From: Elusimicrobiota bacterium
GTDB lineage: Bacteria > CG03 > SLGR01 > PWQF01
Length of the DNA: 31,053 bases
Assembly (NCBI GenBank): GCA_003557485.1
Contig: PWOI01000102.1
Coordinates: forward strand, 1 to 31,053
Direction: 5' to 3'
A program made the position numbers and the translations under genes. How positions within the stretch are numbered: the first letter of the stretch is position 1; each line of letters starts with the position of its first letter. The notes below the pieces were generated by a model that searched no databases, was not told the origin of the DNA, and saw only the letters and a program-made list of their open reading frames with translations. Positions 3,161-27,681 of the stretch are shown piece by piece.

Positions 3161-3553
3161 CTACTTGTCTTTTATTTTTTCAAGCACTTCCGAAGGGATT
3201 CTGCGCGGACGAATATCTTCTGATATGCAGGCCAGGTCGGTACTCCCTTCTGCTATGAGTTTTTTGTCAGATTTTCTAACAACCCTGTATGTAAATACAA
3301 TTCTTGCCGAGCCTATTTTTCCAGCCTTAACCTCAACCGTCAGCAAATCCCCGTAGCGGGCCGGGCTTCTGTAATTTACTTCGGCCTTTGAAACTATGAA
3401 AAGAACCCCTTTTTCAGCCAGATCTTTTACCCCGGCTCCTCTTTCCTCCATCCACTCGGTTCTTGCCTTTTCAAAATAAACAAGATAGTTTGCGTAATAG
3501 ACAACGCCTCCGCAGTCGGTATCTGAATAATATATTTTTATTTCAAAGCTCAT
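3161..3553 (-). CDS. YbgC/4-hydroxybenzoyl-CoA thioesterase-family acyl-CoA thioesterase
   Basis: 130 residues, the normal size for a single hot-dog-fold thioesterase. The N-terminus has the family signature YYSDTDCGGVVYYANYLVYFE, in which Asp13 corresponds to the catalytic Asp and the Gly-Gly-Val-Val-Tyr-Tyr stretch starts the hot-dog helix. EWMEERG and the later strand RIVFTYRVVRK also fit. Such enzymes hydrolyse short- to long-chain acyl-CoA or acyl-ACP in the cytoplasm; in Proteobacteria YbgC accompanies tol-pal, but no tol genes are visible here. The ATG overlaps the stop of the preceding beta-barrel gene (TAATG), so translation is probably coupled. Substrate unknown. Confidence 0.82.
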   Translation of the reverse strand: MSFEIKIYYSDTDCGGVVYYANYLVYFEKARTEWMEERGAGVKDLAEKGVLFIVSKAEVNYRSPARYGDLLTVEVKAGKIGSARIVFTYRVVRKSDKKLIAEGSTDLACISEDIRPRRIPSEVLEKIKDK

Positions 3554-4320
3554 TAAACCAGGTTAAATGAAAAACCCAGCCCAAGCGTAAACCTCGTCCG
3601 GGCATTATCGATAAAATATTTTCCTGAGGGTCCGTAAAGAACCAGGTATCCTGCCCGCGCGGTAAGATATTGCCGCAGTTTCACATAAAGGGAGTTATCC
3701 CACCTCATCTCGAATTCTTCTTCAAACTCAGTAAAAAGCCTTAATTCCGAAACAAACCTTGTTCCTTCGCGCATCTTAAGGCTATAGCTGGTTACTGATT
3801 CCGCTCCGGTCTGATGGAGGGGTTCTTCTCCCTTTTCCAGCCTCTGCCTAAGCGCTGCACCTATACGGGTATTAAGAGTTTGGTCAGGCTGTTTTATCAG
3901 GCTCCAGCCAAGCCCTGCAGACTGACCCAATACGGAAGGATTAAAAAATTCATTAAACTGAGATATAACTGAAGCTGCCCCGTAGGGATTAAGGTACACA
4001 TTAAGTTTCCTTGTATAAACGCTCTCAATATCAATAAGATCCGCAGAAACCTGGGAAGAACCGCCGGAAACCGAAGCCTCGCCATATTCACTTTTCAGCG
4101 TATTAAGCCAGTTGTCGTATTCTCTTTCCCTTTCCGCGCTTAAATCCAGAGAAATCATCCAATTTTTTGAATCCTGTTCGCTTCCTTCCCAGTTGTCTGA
4201 AACAATCGTTTCATTGTAATCAAAGCCTGCAAAACCTGAATATTCCCAGCTTAAAGCCTCAGAAGACCTTAATAACAACAAAACAAAAGCAACTGCCGAA
4301 ATATAAATCACCTGTTTCAT
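3553..4320 (-). CDS. secreted outer-membrane beta-barrel-like protein
   Basis: About 255 residues from the ATG at 4320. That start is chosen over a GTG 9 nt upstream because an AGGGAG sequence lies 8-9 nt before the ATG and only 1-2 nt before the GTG. Residues 1 to about 22 form a signal peptide (Lys, then VIYISAVAFVLLLL, then SSEA). The mature part alternates polar and hydrophobic residues with many Tyr, Trp and Phe and ends in a barrel-like strand (FTLGLGFSFNLV), resembling DUF481/DUF3078-type outer-membrane proteins, though I cannot assign a family with confidence. Repeated motifs such as EFEEEFEMRWDNSLYVKLRQY look like adjacent beta hairpins. It follows the histidine kinase after 76 nt and overlaps the thioesterase gene by 1 nt. 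Function unknown. Confidence 0.65.
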   Translation of the reverse strand: MKQVIYISAVAFVLLLLRSSEALSWEYSGFAGFDYNETIVSDNWEGSEQDSKNWMISLDLSAEREREYDNWLNTLKSEYGEASVSGGSSQVSADLIDIESVYTRKLNVYLNPYGAASVISQFNEFFNPSVLGQSAGLGWSLIKQPDQTLNTRIGAALRQRLEKGEEPLHQTGAESVTSYSLKMREGTRFVSELRLFTEFEEEFEMRWDNSLYVKLRQYLTARAGYLVLYGPSGKYFIDNARTRFTLGLGFSFNLV

Positions 4321-4375
4321 ATAATTCACTCCCTTGTTTAAACCCTGCTTTACTTGTCACACTATACAATATTTT

Positions 4376-4417
4376 AAAAAAAATTTCTCTACCTCTTATA
4401 ATTGTTCAGGCAAGAGG
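4376..4417 (-). terminator. possible intrinsic terminator at the end of the histidine kinase gene
   Basis: Read on the minus strand, CCTCTT (4412-4417) and AAGAGG (4392-4397) form a perfect 6-bp inverted repeat with a 14-nt loop. It is followed after 8 nt by a run of eight T (4376-4383). The hairpin overlaps the last codons and stop of the kinase gene. The loop is long and the T-run is set back, so it may be weak or fortuitous. Confidence 0.3.
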
Positions 4418-6523
4418 CAAAGTTACAGTAAAAACAGCTCCTCCATCCTTACTGTTGGCTGCAGTTATGCTTCCGCCATGTGAGTTTATTATCTGGTAAG
4501 AAAGCGCAAGGCCCAACCCTGTACCGGCATTTCTTTTTGTTGTGAAAAAATAATCGAATACCTGTCCGACAACATCCTTGGACAGGCCGTGGCCGGTATC
4601 TATTATTTCAACTACTGCATTCTTTTTTTTGTCACGGACTGCCTTTATGAATATTTTTTTCTCCCTGCCGTTTTCTACAACAGAGTCTACTGCATTTGTT
4701 AAAATGTTCATAAAAACCTGCTCCAGCTGAACATCTTCCCCTAAAATATTAATCCCTTCCTCTATGTCAGTATTTACCTCAACCCGGCCGCCTTTGATCT
4801 TACTTTCAGCAAGCTTAAGAGATTCGCTTATGATCTCCCTCATTTCCGCAATCCTCTTCTTTCCTGTGCCGGGTTTGGAAAATCTCATAATACTATCCAC
4901 TATCCCGCTTCCTTTCTCGGCATTGCCCATTATAAGCTCCAGCGCATTCCTCATCTTGCTTCTTTTTTCATCTGAAATGCTGTTTTCGCCATCAATAAAA
5001 CTGCTTAGCATCTGGGCATTAAGCTGTATTCCACAGAAAGGATTGTTGATGTTGTGGGCAAAACCTGCAGCCATTTGTCCTATTGATGACATCTTGGCAG
5101 CCTGCACAAGCATTGCCTCAGATTGTTTTACTTTATTATAAAATTCCGCATTCTCAATAGCCAGGGCTGCCTGCCCGGCCAGGATCCTGAACATGTCAAT
5201 ATCTTCGGGAGTATATATCCTGCCGTTGTTTTTTGTTCCCAGAGTCATAAAACCGTTCATCCTTTCTTTTATAAAAGCAGGCACAATCAATTCAGCTCCG
5301 GTGTTTCTTATATATTTTTCCGCCTCATTGTACTGTTCTGTTTTTTTAATTTTAAATTCATTTAGCAGCTCCTCTTTGAGCACTGGTTCTTTGACTTTTT
5401 TAAGGTGTTTAATCAGGGGGCTTTCTTCGTCCAATCTTATATCATGCTGCTGGCGCCTTTCCAGACCGTATCCTTTTCTGTATTCATATTCCTTTTTTTC
5501 ATCATCCCAAAGAAATATTCGGGTATAGCTTACTCCTACATTTGTCGTTACAGTTCTTGTTATCCAGGTTAGAAGATCATTAATATTTTTTGTAAGGGTC
5601 ATTCTCTTTCCCAGCTCTACAAGAGTATGCTGGTACTCTTTCTGCTGGCGAAAAAGAGCCCACTCGGCTTTATTTTTAAGTTTACTATATATCCCAGGGC
5701 CCAGGCTTGCAATTATGACTGAGAAAAACACAGGCAAAAGCCACCACCTGTCGCCAATATTATTTGAAAGATATTCTTCACCTAAAATTGCGGTTCCGAA
5801 TGGAATACCGAGGATAAGGATATATACAACACCAAATACCATTCCACGGGTAACAGCAACTCTTATATCCATAAGCCGGTGTTTTACTATAGCATATGCC
5901 ATTAGTCCGACAAAAAGAGGAACTATAAAATTGCCGTAAGGCGGAATGGGAATGTCGTACCACAGAAAATAATTGGTAGATCCGCTTGTATACCCGACAA
6001 GTATTCCCAAAAGAACATACTTGATTTGGTTCTGCTTTATTCCGCTAGACTTTCTGTGCTCCCTAAAAAGCAAAACACAGGGATAAATACAGTAAAAAAG
6101 CCAGACCAACAGAAAAGGAGCAAATAATATACCAGGCTCCGGCCAGAACCTGAACCCTAATTTAGAAGTGACATTTTTTACAAATAAAGGCGTAAAATTA
6201 AGAAAAAAACAAATTGCAAAAAAACCCGTTCCGACTTGAATCAGATTTTTTTTATTATAAATATTTAAAAATAAAAGAGTGAAATGGAAAAAACTAAGCG
6301 GAATAAAAATCGCACCCGCCATAAAAAAACGAACCCAAAACAATGCAGATACTGCATTAGTTGATATTTGCCAAAAGAAATAACCATAACTCCAAAAAGC
6401 TACAACCAAACAAAAGAGTGAATATTTTTTATTTATTACGCGATCCGGATTATTTTTATATACAAGAAAACCCAGGAGAGAAGTTAAGATCGCATTTATT
6501 AGCGCCGATATCGCATAAATCAT
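4406..6523 (-). CDS. 7TM-GAF sensor histidine kinase
   Basis: 705 residues. About 1-225 is a seven-helix membrane sensor of the HisKA_7TM type, ending with the typical YAIVKHRLMDIRV; two further hydrophobic segments lie at about 226-248 and 260-280. A GAF domain covers about 300-460 and a short coil leads to HisKA at about 475-550, with the phospho-acceptor His490 in GFAHNINNPF. The ATPase has its N box (FMNILTNAVDSV, 604-615), G1 (DTGHG, 642-646) and G2 (GTGLGLAL, 667-674). Next to the His an Asn replaces the more usual Glu. No receiver domain is attached. The ATG lies 7 nt after the stop of the PilZ-methyltransferase gene with no visible Shine-Dalgarno, so the two genes are almost certainly cotranscribed. 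The ligand is unknown; a product of the neighbouring methyltransferase is a testable idea. Confidence 0.9.
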   Translation of the reverse strand: MIYAISALINAILTSLLGFLVYKNNPDRVINKKYSLFCLVVAFWSYGYFFWQISTNAVSALFWVRFFMAGAIFIPLSFFHFTLLFLNIYNKKNLIQVGTGFFAICFFLNFTPLFVKNVTSKLGFRFWPEPGILFAPFLLVWLFYCIYPCVLLFREHRKSSGIKQNQIKYVLLGILVGYTSGSTNYFLWYDIPIPPYGNFIVPLFVGLMAYAIVKHRLMDIRVAVTRGMVFGVVYILILGIPFGTAILGEEYLSNNIGDRWWLLPVFFSVIIASLGPGIYSKLKNKAEWALFRQQKEYQHTLVELGKRMTLTKNINDLLTWITRTVTTNVGVSYTRIFLWDDEKKEYEYRKGYGLERRQQHDIRLDEESPLIKHLKKVKEPVLKEELLNEFKIKKTEQYNEAEKYIRNTGAELIVPAFIKERMNGFMTLGTKNNGRIYTPEDIDMFRILAGQAALAIENAEFYNKVKQSEAMLVQAAKMSSIGQMAAGFAHNINNPFCGIQLNAQMLSSFIDGENSISDEKRSKMRNALELIMGNAEKGSGIVDSIMRFSKPGTGKKRIAEMREIISESLKLAESKIKGGRVEVNTDIEEGINILGEDVQLEQVFMNILTNAVDSVVENGREKKIFIKAVRDKKKNAVVEIIDTGHGLSKDVVGQVFDYFFTTKRNAGTGLGLALSYQIINSHGGSITAANSKDGGAVFTVTLPLA

Positions 6524-6530
6524 AATTCGT

Positions 6531-7850
6531 TTATTTTGATGCTACTATATAATTAATTATACCTTGTTGTTCATACTTAATTTTTAGCTGATTCTGTGCA
6601 AATCCGGCATTGGTAAAAATCCTCATGAACTCTTCGTCACTTCTGTACACAAGATTCCAATCAGCGGCCCATTCCATAAAGTAAACCGAAGGGTTACTGT
6701 ATTTGTCTCTGACTGTAGCAACAAGAAGTTTCCCGTCATGCTTAAGAAGTTTTTTTAAGTTACTTACCAGGCGCGTTGCTACCTCTTCATTAAAATAATC
6801 GAATAAACCCAGTGAATAAATTATGTCATATTTATTATTAAACATAGCATATATATCTTTCTTTAAAGCTATCTTTAAAGCATTTTCTTTAAAAAAATTC
6901 ACATTTTCAGGACTGCCAAGAAGTTCTTTTGCATAGTCAATCGCTTTCTGCTCTAACTCATAACAATCAAATATTGCCAGTTCCTTTTGAAATTTTTCAT
7001 TTTCGAAAAGCTCTTTTATAATGCGGCACGGTCCGCAAGCAAGATCCATCAGTCTTACATCTCCGTTTTTTTTATTATCAATATGTTCCATTATTAACCT
7101 TTTAAAATCTTCTTTTCTATTACGCACAGCCACCGCAATTGAAGACATTTGGGTATAATTATCAAATAACCTCTCAAACCCCTTCGTTGTCGGATTGTTT
7201 CTGTACAGGTCATCTATTATTTTAAAATCTCCTGCATATCCGAAGGGTTTACGCAAACTCCATGATACATATTCACCTTTAGAAAAAACATCTCTGAATT
7301 TATCAACAAAAAGCGTTTTAAGTTTATCAACTTTATTTTTATTTCCCTTAATCATATTTTCTTTTTCATAATTCATTATTTCTCTGAATATGCTGTTTAT
7401 TTCTTCATTGAATTCATTCTGAAATCTTCCCCATTCTTCGGGGTGTTCATTCAGGTAATCTTCGATTTCCTTTGCCCTGTGCTTATATATCTTTATTCTT
7501 CTCAGGAGCGATGCTTTTATGGAACCCAAACCTAGGATATTATCCTCGATATATTCATCCAGCAACCTTCGTTTTTCCCCATCAAAAGCTTTTATATTTA
7601 CTCCGTAATTGTTGCTGTCCGGCTGTTTCCATATTATTCTGCCCGGTATTTCGAATGTACCCGAGGTGCCCGGGTTGTTTACCAGGATTTCTATTTCTTC
7701 TGATTCAGGTATTTCTTTCTTTGCTTTTATCATCAGGCCATCCTTGCTCATATCCATTATCCATCCGTCAACATATGAGTTCCTCTCGGTATTGCCTATT
7801 ATTTTTACAGGTATGTTTTTTGTAAACCTCGAAACTTTTCTTTTACTCAT
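6531..7850 (-). CDS. PilZ domain fused to PhcB-like SAM methyltransferase
   Basis: 439 residues. The N-terminal ~100 residues are a PilZ domain with both c-di-GMP contact motifs intact: RKVSR (RxxxR, residues 4-8) and DMSKDG (DxSxxG, 33-38). A helical linker (about 100-190) follows. Then comes a class I SAM-dependent methyltransferase with glycine-rich motif I LMDLACGPCR (267-276), the acidic end of strand 2 (YELEQ, about 297-301) and YSLGLFDYF (345-353). The preceding KPFGYAGDFKIIDDLY is characteristic of proteins annotated as 3-hydroxypalmitate methyl ester biosynthesis (PhcB-like). The ATG has a GGAG 8 nt upstream. It is the first gene of the minus-strand operon and is followed by a sensor kinase. 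Inference: c-di-GMP gates methylation of a small, perhaps fatty-acid-derived, substrate; a role unrelated to PhcB chemistry is possible. Confidence 0.82.
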   Translation of the reverse strand: MSKRKVSRFTKNIPVKIIGNTERNSYVDGWIMDMSKDGLMIKAKKEIPESEEIEILVNNPGTSGTFEIPGRIIWKQPDSNNYGVNIKAFDGEKRRLLDEYIEDNILGLGSIKASLLRRIKIYKHRAKEIEDYLNEHPEEWGRFQNEFNEEINSIFREIMNYEKENMIKGNKNKVDKLKTLFVDKFRDVFSKGEYVSWSLRKPFGYAGDFKIIDDLYRNNPTTKGFERLFDNYTQMSSIAVAVRNRKEDFKRLIMEHIDNKKNGDVRLMDLACGPCRIIKELFENEKFQKELAIFDCYELEQKAIDYAKELLGSPENVNFFKENALKIALKKDIYAMFNNKYDIIYSLGLFDYFNEEVATRLVSNLKKLLKHDGKLLVATVRDKYSNPSVYFMEWAADWNLVYRSDEEFMRIFTNAGFAQNQLKIKYEQQGIINYIVASK

Positions 7851-26896: not shown

Positions 26897-27295
26897 ATGA
26901 AAAAAATACTTATTGTAGAAGATGACCCGTCTGCAAAACAGATTTACAGAGATTTTCTTGAAAGGTTTAAAAACCTTAAACTGTATGAAGAATCAGACGG
27001 AGAATCCGGCTTTGAAACTGCCAAAAAAGTACTTCCCGACCTCATAGTCCTTGATAACAGAATGCCTAACCTCTCAGGCGAACAGGCTGCAAAAAAGCTC
27101 AGGGCAGAACCTTCTACCTCATCAATACCTGTAGTAATGATAACAGCAATGGCTCTGGATAAACGACAAATTGAGCTCATTAAGCTTGATGTGGATGAAT
27201 TTATACAGCATCCTTTCAGCCCCTGGATGTTCCAAAGCACTATAGAAAAGTATTTGGGCCCGTTAGCTGAGATTTCGCTGGATCCTGAAAATTGA
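26897..27295 (+). CDS. CheY-like single-domain response regulator (first of tandem pair)
   Basis: 132 residues, one receiver domain and nothing else. The acidic pocket VEDD (7-10), phospho-acceptor Asp53 in LIVLDNRMP and the switch Thr83 in VVMITAMA are intact. The invariant Lys before the cis-Pro (KPF in most receivers) is His105 (IQHPF), which should change phosphorylation kinetics. No histidine kinase is adjacent. The stop overlaps the next gene's TTG. About half of its positions are identical to the second receiver by hand alignment, including the C-terminal IEKYLGPL, so the pair arose by tandem duplication. Targets are unknown; a CheY- or SpoIIR-style phosphorelay or a polarity role is possible. 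Confidence 0.92.
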   Translation: MKKILIVEDDPSAKQIYRDFLERFKNLKLYEESDGESGFETAKKVLPDLIVLDNRMPNLSGEQAAKKLRAEPSTSSIPVVMITAMALDKRQIELIKLDVDEFIQHPFSPWMFQSTIEKYLGPLAEISLDPEN

Positions 27296-27681
27296 AAAAA
27301 ATCCTTGTTATAGAGGACGATACAAGCACTCGGAAACTTTATCGTCACTTTTTAGAAAGATTCAGGGATATTCATGTTTATGAAGCCGGGGATGGCTATA
27401 CCGGCCTGGACCAGGCAGTAAAGATAAAACCGGACCTGATAATACTTGATAACAGAATGCCGGGAATGCCCGGCGAACTTCTTGCAAAAAAACTTAAATC
27501 AATACCTTCAGTCAAGGAAATACCTATAATAATGGCAACCGCCATGAAGCTTACGGAAGAACTGCAAGAAATGATAAAAATGGATATTCAGGAGTTTATT
27601 AAGCAGCCTTTCAGCCAGTGGGAACTCCAAAAAAAAATTGAAAAATACCTCGGCCCTCTGATCGAGCTTACTATAGACTAG
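27292..27681 (+). CDS. CheY-like single-domain response regulator (second of tandem pair)
   Basis: 129 residues, a lone receiver. Acidic pocket IEDD (7-10), Asp53 in LIILDNRMP and Thr83 in IIMATAMK are present, while the normally invariant Lys is Gln105 (IKQPF), with a Lys one residue earlier. Start is TTG at 27292, overlapping the previous stop as TTGA, so expression is translationally coupled. The protein converges on comEC with 3 nt between stops. Duplicate of the first receiver, with different substitutions at the same key site. Confidence 0.92.
   Translation: MKKILVIEDDTSTRKLYRHFLERFRDIHVYEAGDGYTGLDQAVKIKPDLIILDNRMPGMPGELLAKKLKSIPSVKEIPIIMATAMKLTEELQEMIKMDIQEFIKQPFSQWELQKKIEKYLGPLIELTID

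Follow-up and report, generated by a model that had tools for sequence, protein, structure and literature searches.

A methyltransferase and 7TM sensor kinase gene pair recurring across Omnitrophota suggests a mode of cell-to-cell signalling not recognised before

To our knowledge, signalling by fatty-acid methyl esters is known chiefly from Ralstonia and its relatives. In the Phc system of the Ralstonia solanacearum complex (PhcB, PhcS, PhcR and PhcQ) the methyltransferase PhcB makes 3-hydroxy fatty-acid methyl esters that are sensed by PhcS, and the genes form the operon phcBSRQ (PMC8578825, PMC6989110). According to Rivera-Millot et al. (PMC5426589), free fatty acids are methylated by FmtB of Bordetella (BP2936); in the crystal structure of its B. 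parapertussis ortholog (3OCJ) the cavity of the helical substrate domain is occupied by a molecule that is most likely palmitate. Cellular methyl esters were lost in a double mutant of the FmtB SAM motif, and since purified FmtB was inactive in vitro the authors were unable to formally exclude an indirect effect (PMC5426589). A precedent for PilZ control of a methyltransferase is found in Pseudomonas aeruginosa, where the PilZ-type adaptor MapZ inhibits CheR1 (PMC6370697).

Here we describe a gene pair on a 31,053-nt stretch of an Elusimicrobiota contig (PWOI01000102.1; hereafter the window), which a sequence-only reading had tentatively interpreted as a PhcB-like signal synthase and its receptor kinase. 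As in MapZ-CheR1, where a c-di-GMP-binding PilZ protein controls a SAM methyltransferase (PMC6370697, PMC7288161), the two functions are associated in the window. However, MapZ is a separate adaptor acting on a chemoreceptor methyltransferase, whereas the PilZ domain in the window is fused to a putative small-molecule methyltransferase.

Architecture of the gene pair in the window

Both genes of the pair are located on the reverse strand, as are all their features given below. The candidate signal synthase gene (6531..7850) is an intact open reading frame for 439 aa, with an ATG start and a GGAG 9 nt 5' of it. Its product comprises a PilZ domain (residues 3-102, 7545..7844; Pfam PF07238), a helical domain delimited on the predicted model (residues 91-191, 7278..7580), which from residue 111 onward falls within the match to 3OCJ, and a class I SAM methyltransferase domain supported by Pfam and the predicted model (residues 192-439, 6534..7277). 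The family signature KPFGYAGD is found at residues 201-208 (7227..7250). In 16 diverse family members from many phyla its residues P202, G204, Y205, G207 and D208 (KPxGYxGD) are invariant, together with R245, G273, G348, Y352, G373, W398 and R403. The proposed linkage of PilZ to a SAM methyltransferase was borne out by class I methyltransferase matches (residues 263-416, E 1.5e-8) and by a PF12147 match over cut-off (residues 212-436).

The PilZ match was well above threshold (E 1.4e-10, 41.8 bits versus a cut-off of 22.5). Both c-di-GMP motifs, RxxxR (RKVSR, residues 4-8, 7827..7841) and DxSxxG (DMSKDG, residues 33-38, 7737..7754), are intact at exactly the positions previously claimed, and the two motifs at this spacing occurred in only 0.7% of shuffled copies of the N-terminus. 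R4, R8 and G38 are nearly invariant in an alignment of the window protein with a second Omnitrophota clade of the family (clade 2), which consists of proteins of ~450 aa with an N-terminal PilZ domain and the same motifs. Pfam detected PilZ in 17 of the 21 window and clade-2 proteins. Since the window genome also encodes 8 GGDEF matches and 4 PilZ matches, c-di-GMP is probably present in this organism. In the predicted structure the helical region and the methyltransferase were mostly of high confidence (above 90 in nearly all blocks from approximately residue 120). The PilZ part was modelled with low confidence, because the modelling alignment contained no other PilZ sequence.

The next gene, starting 7 nt after the methyltransferase stop, encodes the membrane sensor kinase anticipated by the sequence-only reading (4406..6523, 705 aa). 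It combines a HisKA_7TM sensor domain (5864..6502; Pfam E 1.1e-14), the candidate receptor for the enzyme product, with a GAF domain, a HisKA domain carrying an AHNINNP H-box (4865-5080; Pfam E 2.9e-7) and a HATPase_c catalytic domain (4412..4735; Pfam E 2.4e-21). HisKA_7TM, HisKA and HATPase_c all scored over cut-off. The whole kinase was modelled well (mean pLDDT 87); the Foldseek matches listed were sensor kinases and photoreceptors and gave nothing specific to the 7TM part. The kinase shares this domain set with other 7TM sensor histidine kinases (Pfam HisKA_7TM), but differs from them in belonging to a subgroup tied to the methyltransferase. We know of no fatty-acid-ester ligand reported for any HisKA_7TM kinase.

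At 76 nt after the kinase gene follows a gene for a DUF481 outer-membrane-type protein (3553..4329, reverse strand), probably a same-strand neighbour outside the signalling system. Neither a response regulator nor a FadL gene was found beside the window pair, and the best match to the Omnitrophota regulator elsewhere in the window genome was only 40% identical. Two overlapping receiver-matching genes lie at 26897-27681 (forward strand), upstream of an oppositely oriented ComEC-like competence gene. They are only distantly like the Omnitrophota operon regulator (the first is 24% identical; genome-wide search, E 1e-5 to 1e-4), and a role as the missing regulator was not supported.

Relation of the methyltransferase to FmtB and PhcB

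Library models matching the window methyltransferase were limited to PF12147 and models with generic methyltransferase names. The top structural match of the predicted model was 3OCJ (Z 21.2, rmsd 3.0, 246 residues aligned), which covered model residues 111-439 with the helical domain included. The next-best match, SgvM (Z 19.9), covered residues 192-439 only, and alignments of the next-best entries began at residue 192. As judged from the model, the methyltransferase domain is of class I fold with an FmtB-like helical substrate domain, and the likeness to FmtB extends over the methyltransferase and most of the helical domain. However, FmtB shares only ~16% identity with the window protein, no PilZ domain has been reported in it, and it has no known signalling role (PMC5426589). 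In an alignment made via the family profile, the acidic SAM-motif residue is E298 in the window protein (Asp in most relatives), and the tyrosine of the Ile-(Asp/Glu)-Tyr strand-2 motif of FmtB is replaced by Leu299. The CheR profile did not match the window protein at E 0.1; a few relatives matched it, all below cut-off.

As no PhcB-named model in the profile libraries searched matched the window protein, the link to PhcB was tested separately. Our PhcB reference (L027) was an inferred orthologue on a Paraburkholderia graminis plasmid, not Ralstonia PhcB itself. It was taken as PhcB-like on account of its length, its Arg22 and the order methyltransferase, membrane kinase, receiver, receiver at its locus, where methyltransferase and kinase starts are 1408 nt apart, compared to ~1417 nt in Ralstonia as computed from published mutation coordinates. 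Arg22 is the position changed in the PhcB R22C adaptive mutant and is said to be conserved in Paraburkholderia homologues (PMC8578825, PMC6989110). Nine more PhcB-like proteins from another phylum were 37-41% identical over nearly their full length. Comparison of this PhcB-like set (L027, L174-L182) with the methyltransferases of clade 1, which contains the closest relatives of the window protein, gave an hhalign probability of 99.9% (E 1.9e-35). The methyltransferase tree, with weakly supported deep branches, placed the window clade and the PhcB-like set in different clades. By sequence, the window protein is a PhcB-family methyltransferase and not a PhcB orthologue. The earlier description as PhcB-like holds at the family level only, and the C-terminal domain groups with PhcB-type methyltransferases by hhalign while having an FmtB-like fold.

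The proposed analogy to the PhcB/PhcS pair likewise stood in part. As in Phc, a methyltransferase of the same family adjoins a multi-pass membrane histidine kinase, and in the Omnitrophota loci a response regulator is part of the operon. However, the putative window receptor is of the HisKA_7TM type, and hhalign found no relation between the 7TM set and PhcS-type membrane regions (probability 0.4%). Moreover, the window protein begins with a PilZ domain, to which PhcB-like proteins have nothing similar in their N-terminal domain, and PhcR and PhcQ are absent beside the window pair, the Omnitrophota loci having mostly a single CheY-like gene. The window cassette is thus best read as Phc-like in its working but not as Phc, given its different receptor, N-terminal domain and operon regulators.

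The PhcB N-terminal domain appeared barrel-like by eye, but its interpretation as a degenerate PilZ was rejected (hhalign probability at most 0.2%). The R22C substitution lies in this domain of unknown function, outside the methyltransferase, and the domain is kept by the PhcB-like proteins of the other phylum. It may regulate the synthase, as proposed here for the PilZ domain of the window protein.

Recurrence, inheritance and genomic context of the pair

A search of 386 sampled bacterial genomes (E 1e-8) recovered the methyltransferase family in 23, and it occurred in 59 of 285 genomes of an even sample of Omnitrophota. The closest relatives of the window protein are 41-62% identical to it, belong nearly all to Omnitrophota and mostly lack PilZ (clade 1), which implies that the core system can operate without c-di-GMP control. 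Two of them (L043 and L056) were flagged as PilZ proteins by regular expression; these were chance matches in ~342-aa proteins, and among the close relatives (set A4) Pfam detected PilZ in the window protein only. The usual order in Omnitrophota is a CheY-like receiver of ~124 aa, a methyltransferase of ~340 aa without PilZ and a membrane kinase of 660-800 aa, separated by short gaps.

The pair proposed from the window is strongly conserved in these relatives: 40 of the 43 genes downstream of close relatives, the window included, encode HisKA_7TM. As the ten genomes having any HisKA_7TM contain only 2-6 each, the probability of chance adjacency is well below 1%. Most clade-2 genes are likewise followed by a gene for a 7TM-type membrane protein, and the sensor tree places these proteins with the methyltransferase-adjacent kinases. 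Together with the shared PilZ motifs of clade 2, this indicates that the PilZ-methyltransferase/7TM-kinase pair is recurrent as well. A conserved kinase neighbour was absent for the distant homologues in Bacteroidota and other groups, so the family does not always produce a kinase ligand.

Approximately 12 Omnitrophota loci (L033, L034, L037, L041, L047, L063 and others) encode, elsewhere at the locus, a second 7TM kinase from a separate sensor clade, giving two 7TM sensors per cluster. One contig titled Planctomycetales (L044) is nested within Omnitrophota in both the methyltransferase and the sensor tree, and probably represents a mislabelled or contaminated bin.

The tree of 97 7TM sensor regions had a supported group (97/92) that contained 52 of the 58 methyltransferase-adjacent sensors, five sensors with a methyltransferase elsewhere on the fragment and only one without a methyltransferase on its fragment. 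The other 7TM kinases of the window genome fell outside this group, some on long branches whose exact places are unsure. The window sensor is sister to that of locus L031 (99/81), whose kinase has a CheY-like partner, and the window methyltransferase is sister to the enzyme of the same locus (99), inside the PilZ-less clade. This shared sister indicates that synthase and sensor moved as a unit, and the position within the PilZ-less clade that the PilZ fusion of the window line arose apart from that of clade 2. Pairwise distances of the methyltransferases correlated with those of the 7TM regions (r 0.34, reached in 0 of 2000 permutations) more than with those of the kinase regions (r 0.12), both values being uncorrected for species relatedness.

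The window organism is not an omnitrophote, Omnitrophota genomes being related to it only at the level of the domain, and the gene was absent from all 15 relatives sampled in its own phylum. We ruled out contamination of the bin by an omnitrophote, because GlmM, encoded 900 nt away, is 91% identical to that of a same-genus genome (G001) and only 28-31% to Omnitrophota homologues, which shows that the contig is authentic. G001 lacks the pair and has its LbH and YbgC genes side by side, with a DUF481 scrap between them (L173, G001:C169, 9106-9297), an apparent deletion scar. Deletion in G001 is therefore at least as likely as clean insertion in the window genome. The best fit is that the pair came from Omnitrophota, or a source near them, and was then deleted in G001. 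The YbgC thioesterase was considered as a supplier of substrate and rejected; since G001 keeps YbgC together with TIGR03546/TIGR03545-type genes without the pair, it was assigned to another gene block.

In other phyla, the gene following a PhcB-family methyltransferase often encodes a membrane sensor of another type. PSI-BLAST detected the PhcS-type membrane region in two kinases (L004 and L007), at whose loci PilZ precedes the methyltransferase, and also in class III cyclases (L015, L019 and L107). That a single synthase family is coupled to receptors of two unrelated kinds, with two kinds of output, would be difficult to account for if the receptors did not read the enzyme product. At the latter three loci the gene after the methyltransferase joins the PhcS-type membrane region to a class III adenylate/guanylate cyclase, and a cyclic-nucleotide output of ester signalling is possible there.

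Some loci also have a lipid context. The gene at L016:1483-3258 (reverse strand) encodes a patatin-like phospholipase (PF01734, E 2.9e-14) joined to the N-terminus of a methyltransferase and is followed by a protein-kinase-like ORF; it possibly unites lipase and methyl-ester synthase in one chain, circumstantially in keeping with a supply of free fatty acids. FadL/OMPP1/TodX genes lie directly upstream of the methyltransferase at several Omnitrophota loci (L060:4550-5932, L032:110-1405, L164 and L170; family confirmed by Pfam for L060 and L032). FadL occurred at only 6 loci and lay within 300 bp upstream at 5 of these; it is suggestive only and was not accepted as a fixed component of the system. 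In S. meliloti, FadL assists the sensing of long-chain signals (PMC5977203). Neither a patatin fusion nor FadL is found next to the window pair. A type I polyketide synthase (L211:1583-4720), encoded beside transposition genes on an Enterobacter ludwigii plasmid, has a C-terminal end matching PhcB-family methyltransferases.

Proposed mechanism and alternative explanations

We consider it somewhat better than an even chance that the window pair acts in the manner of Phc, as a signal synthase and its receptor, with c-di-GMP as an input. The C-terminal PhcB/FmtB-type methyltransferase would use SAM to esterify the carboxyl group of a long-chain, possibly 3-hydroxy, fatty acid. The lipophilic ester would then leave the cell or partition into membranes, and the histidine kinase encoded with the enzyme would sense it through its 7TM region, in the producer as well as in neighbouring cells. 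The kinase would phosphorylate a response regulator, which in Omnitrophota would be the CheY-like protein encoded just upstream and in the window organism a protein encoded elsewhere in the genome. Binding of c-di-GMP by the N-terminal PilZ domain would change methyltransferase activity, so that signal output would follow the lifestyle state. We infer the substrate, the role of the product as kinase ligand and the gating of the enzyme by c-di-GMP, including its sign, which may be positive or negative.

Alternatively, the enzyme could be a fatty-acid methyltransferase for lipid housekeeping, in the disposal of free fatty acids or the alteration of membrane or storage lipids, with a kinase that senses membrane or lipid state, a PilZ domain that tunes activity by lifestyle, and no cell-to-cell signal. 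FmtB, a fatty-acid methyltransferase not known to act in signalling (PMC5426589), the many distant homologues lacking a kinase neighbour, and the patatin fusion and FadL neighbours, which also fit fatty-acid turnover, are consistent with this. However, such a function needs neither a dedicated sensor group tied to the enzyme nor a regulator-enzyme-kinase operon, and it leaves unexplained why unrelated membrane sensors, those of the PhcS type among them, have repeatedly become partners of the enzyme; we regard it as unlikely, though worth serious consideration. We give very little credence to a CheR-like protein methyltransferase that would modify, for example, the kinase or the regulator to set gain while the kinase senses an unrelated cue. 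Tight coupling to a kinase would be expected here too, c-di-GMP control of such an enzyme is known from MapZ-CheR1 (PMC6370697), and a few family members gave weak CheR matches, albeit all below cut-off. Yet the best fold match, helical domain included, is a fatty-acid enzyme, and the distance correlation is lower with the kinase region (0.12) than with the 7TM region (0.34). Moreover, the partner sensors are mutually unrelated and end in kinases or cyclases, so that no shared protein substrate is evident.

A further alternative concerns the PilZ domain alone, which might be inert or serve a role other than nucleotide binding, such as dimerisation or membrane targeting, the cassette then being a synthase/receptor pair of the PilZ-less type with an added structural domain. 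The clade-1 relatives do manage without PilZ, and several PilZ-methyltransferases of other lineages have degraded or imperfect motifs (DMGLFG in L004, NLDLIG in L007, also L015 and L019), so c-di-GMP binding is not to be assumed family-wide. On the other hand, both motifs are intact in the window protein and 14 of the 19 clade-2 proteins, compared to 0.5% of shuffled N-termini, and R4, R8 and G38 hardly vary among them. GGDEF proteins are encoded in the window genome, and by the tree PilZ joined the methyltransferase family at least twice. We hold an inert PilZ domain to be quite improbable.

Returning to the synthase/receptor cassette, a wider reading, which we put forward tentatively as somewhat short of an even chance, is that cell-to-cell signalling by fatty-acid esters is widespread and modular, with PhcB-family methyltransferases as its synthases, with interchangeable receptors (the PhcS type with kinase or class III cyclase, the latter giving a cAMP-type output, and 7TM kinases) and with PilZ fusions repeatedly adding c-di-GMP control. 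Our literature search returned no report of a PilZ-methyltransferase/7TM-kinase system or of such signalling in Omnitrophota, an absence that is not proof of novelty. If true, the same synthase family would be used far more widely than in Ralstonia and its relatives, in uncultured phyla without a described chemical language, and receptors for fatty-acid-ester signals would belong to two unrelated classes. Through the PilZ fusion, c-di-GMP would act directly, at the protein level, on the production of an extracellular signal. The cassette also offers possible ligands for 7TM histidine kinases, as a natural synthase/receptor pair that could be transferred to a laboratory host. Altogether, the recurrence of this putative enzyme-receptor pair across the little-known phylum Omnitrophota suggests that cells signal to one another in a way that has gone unrecognised, and no signalling of this type would have been described for the phylum before.
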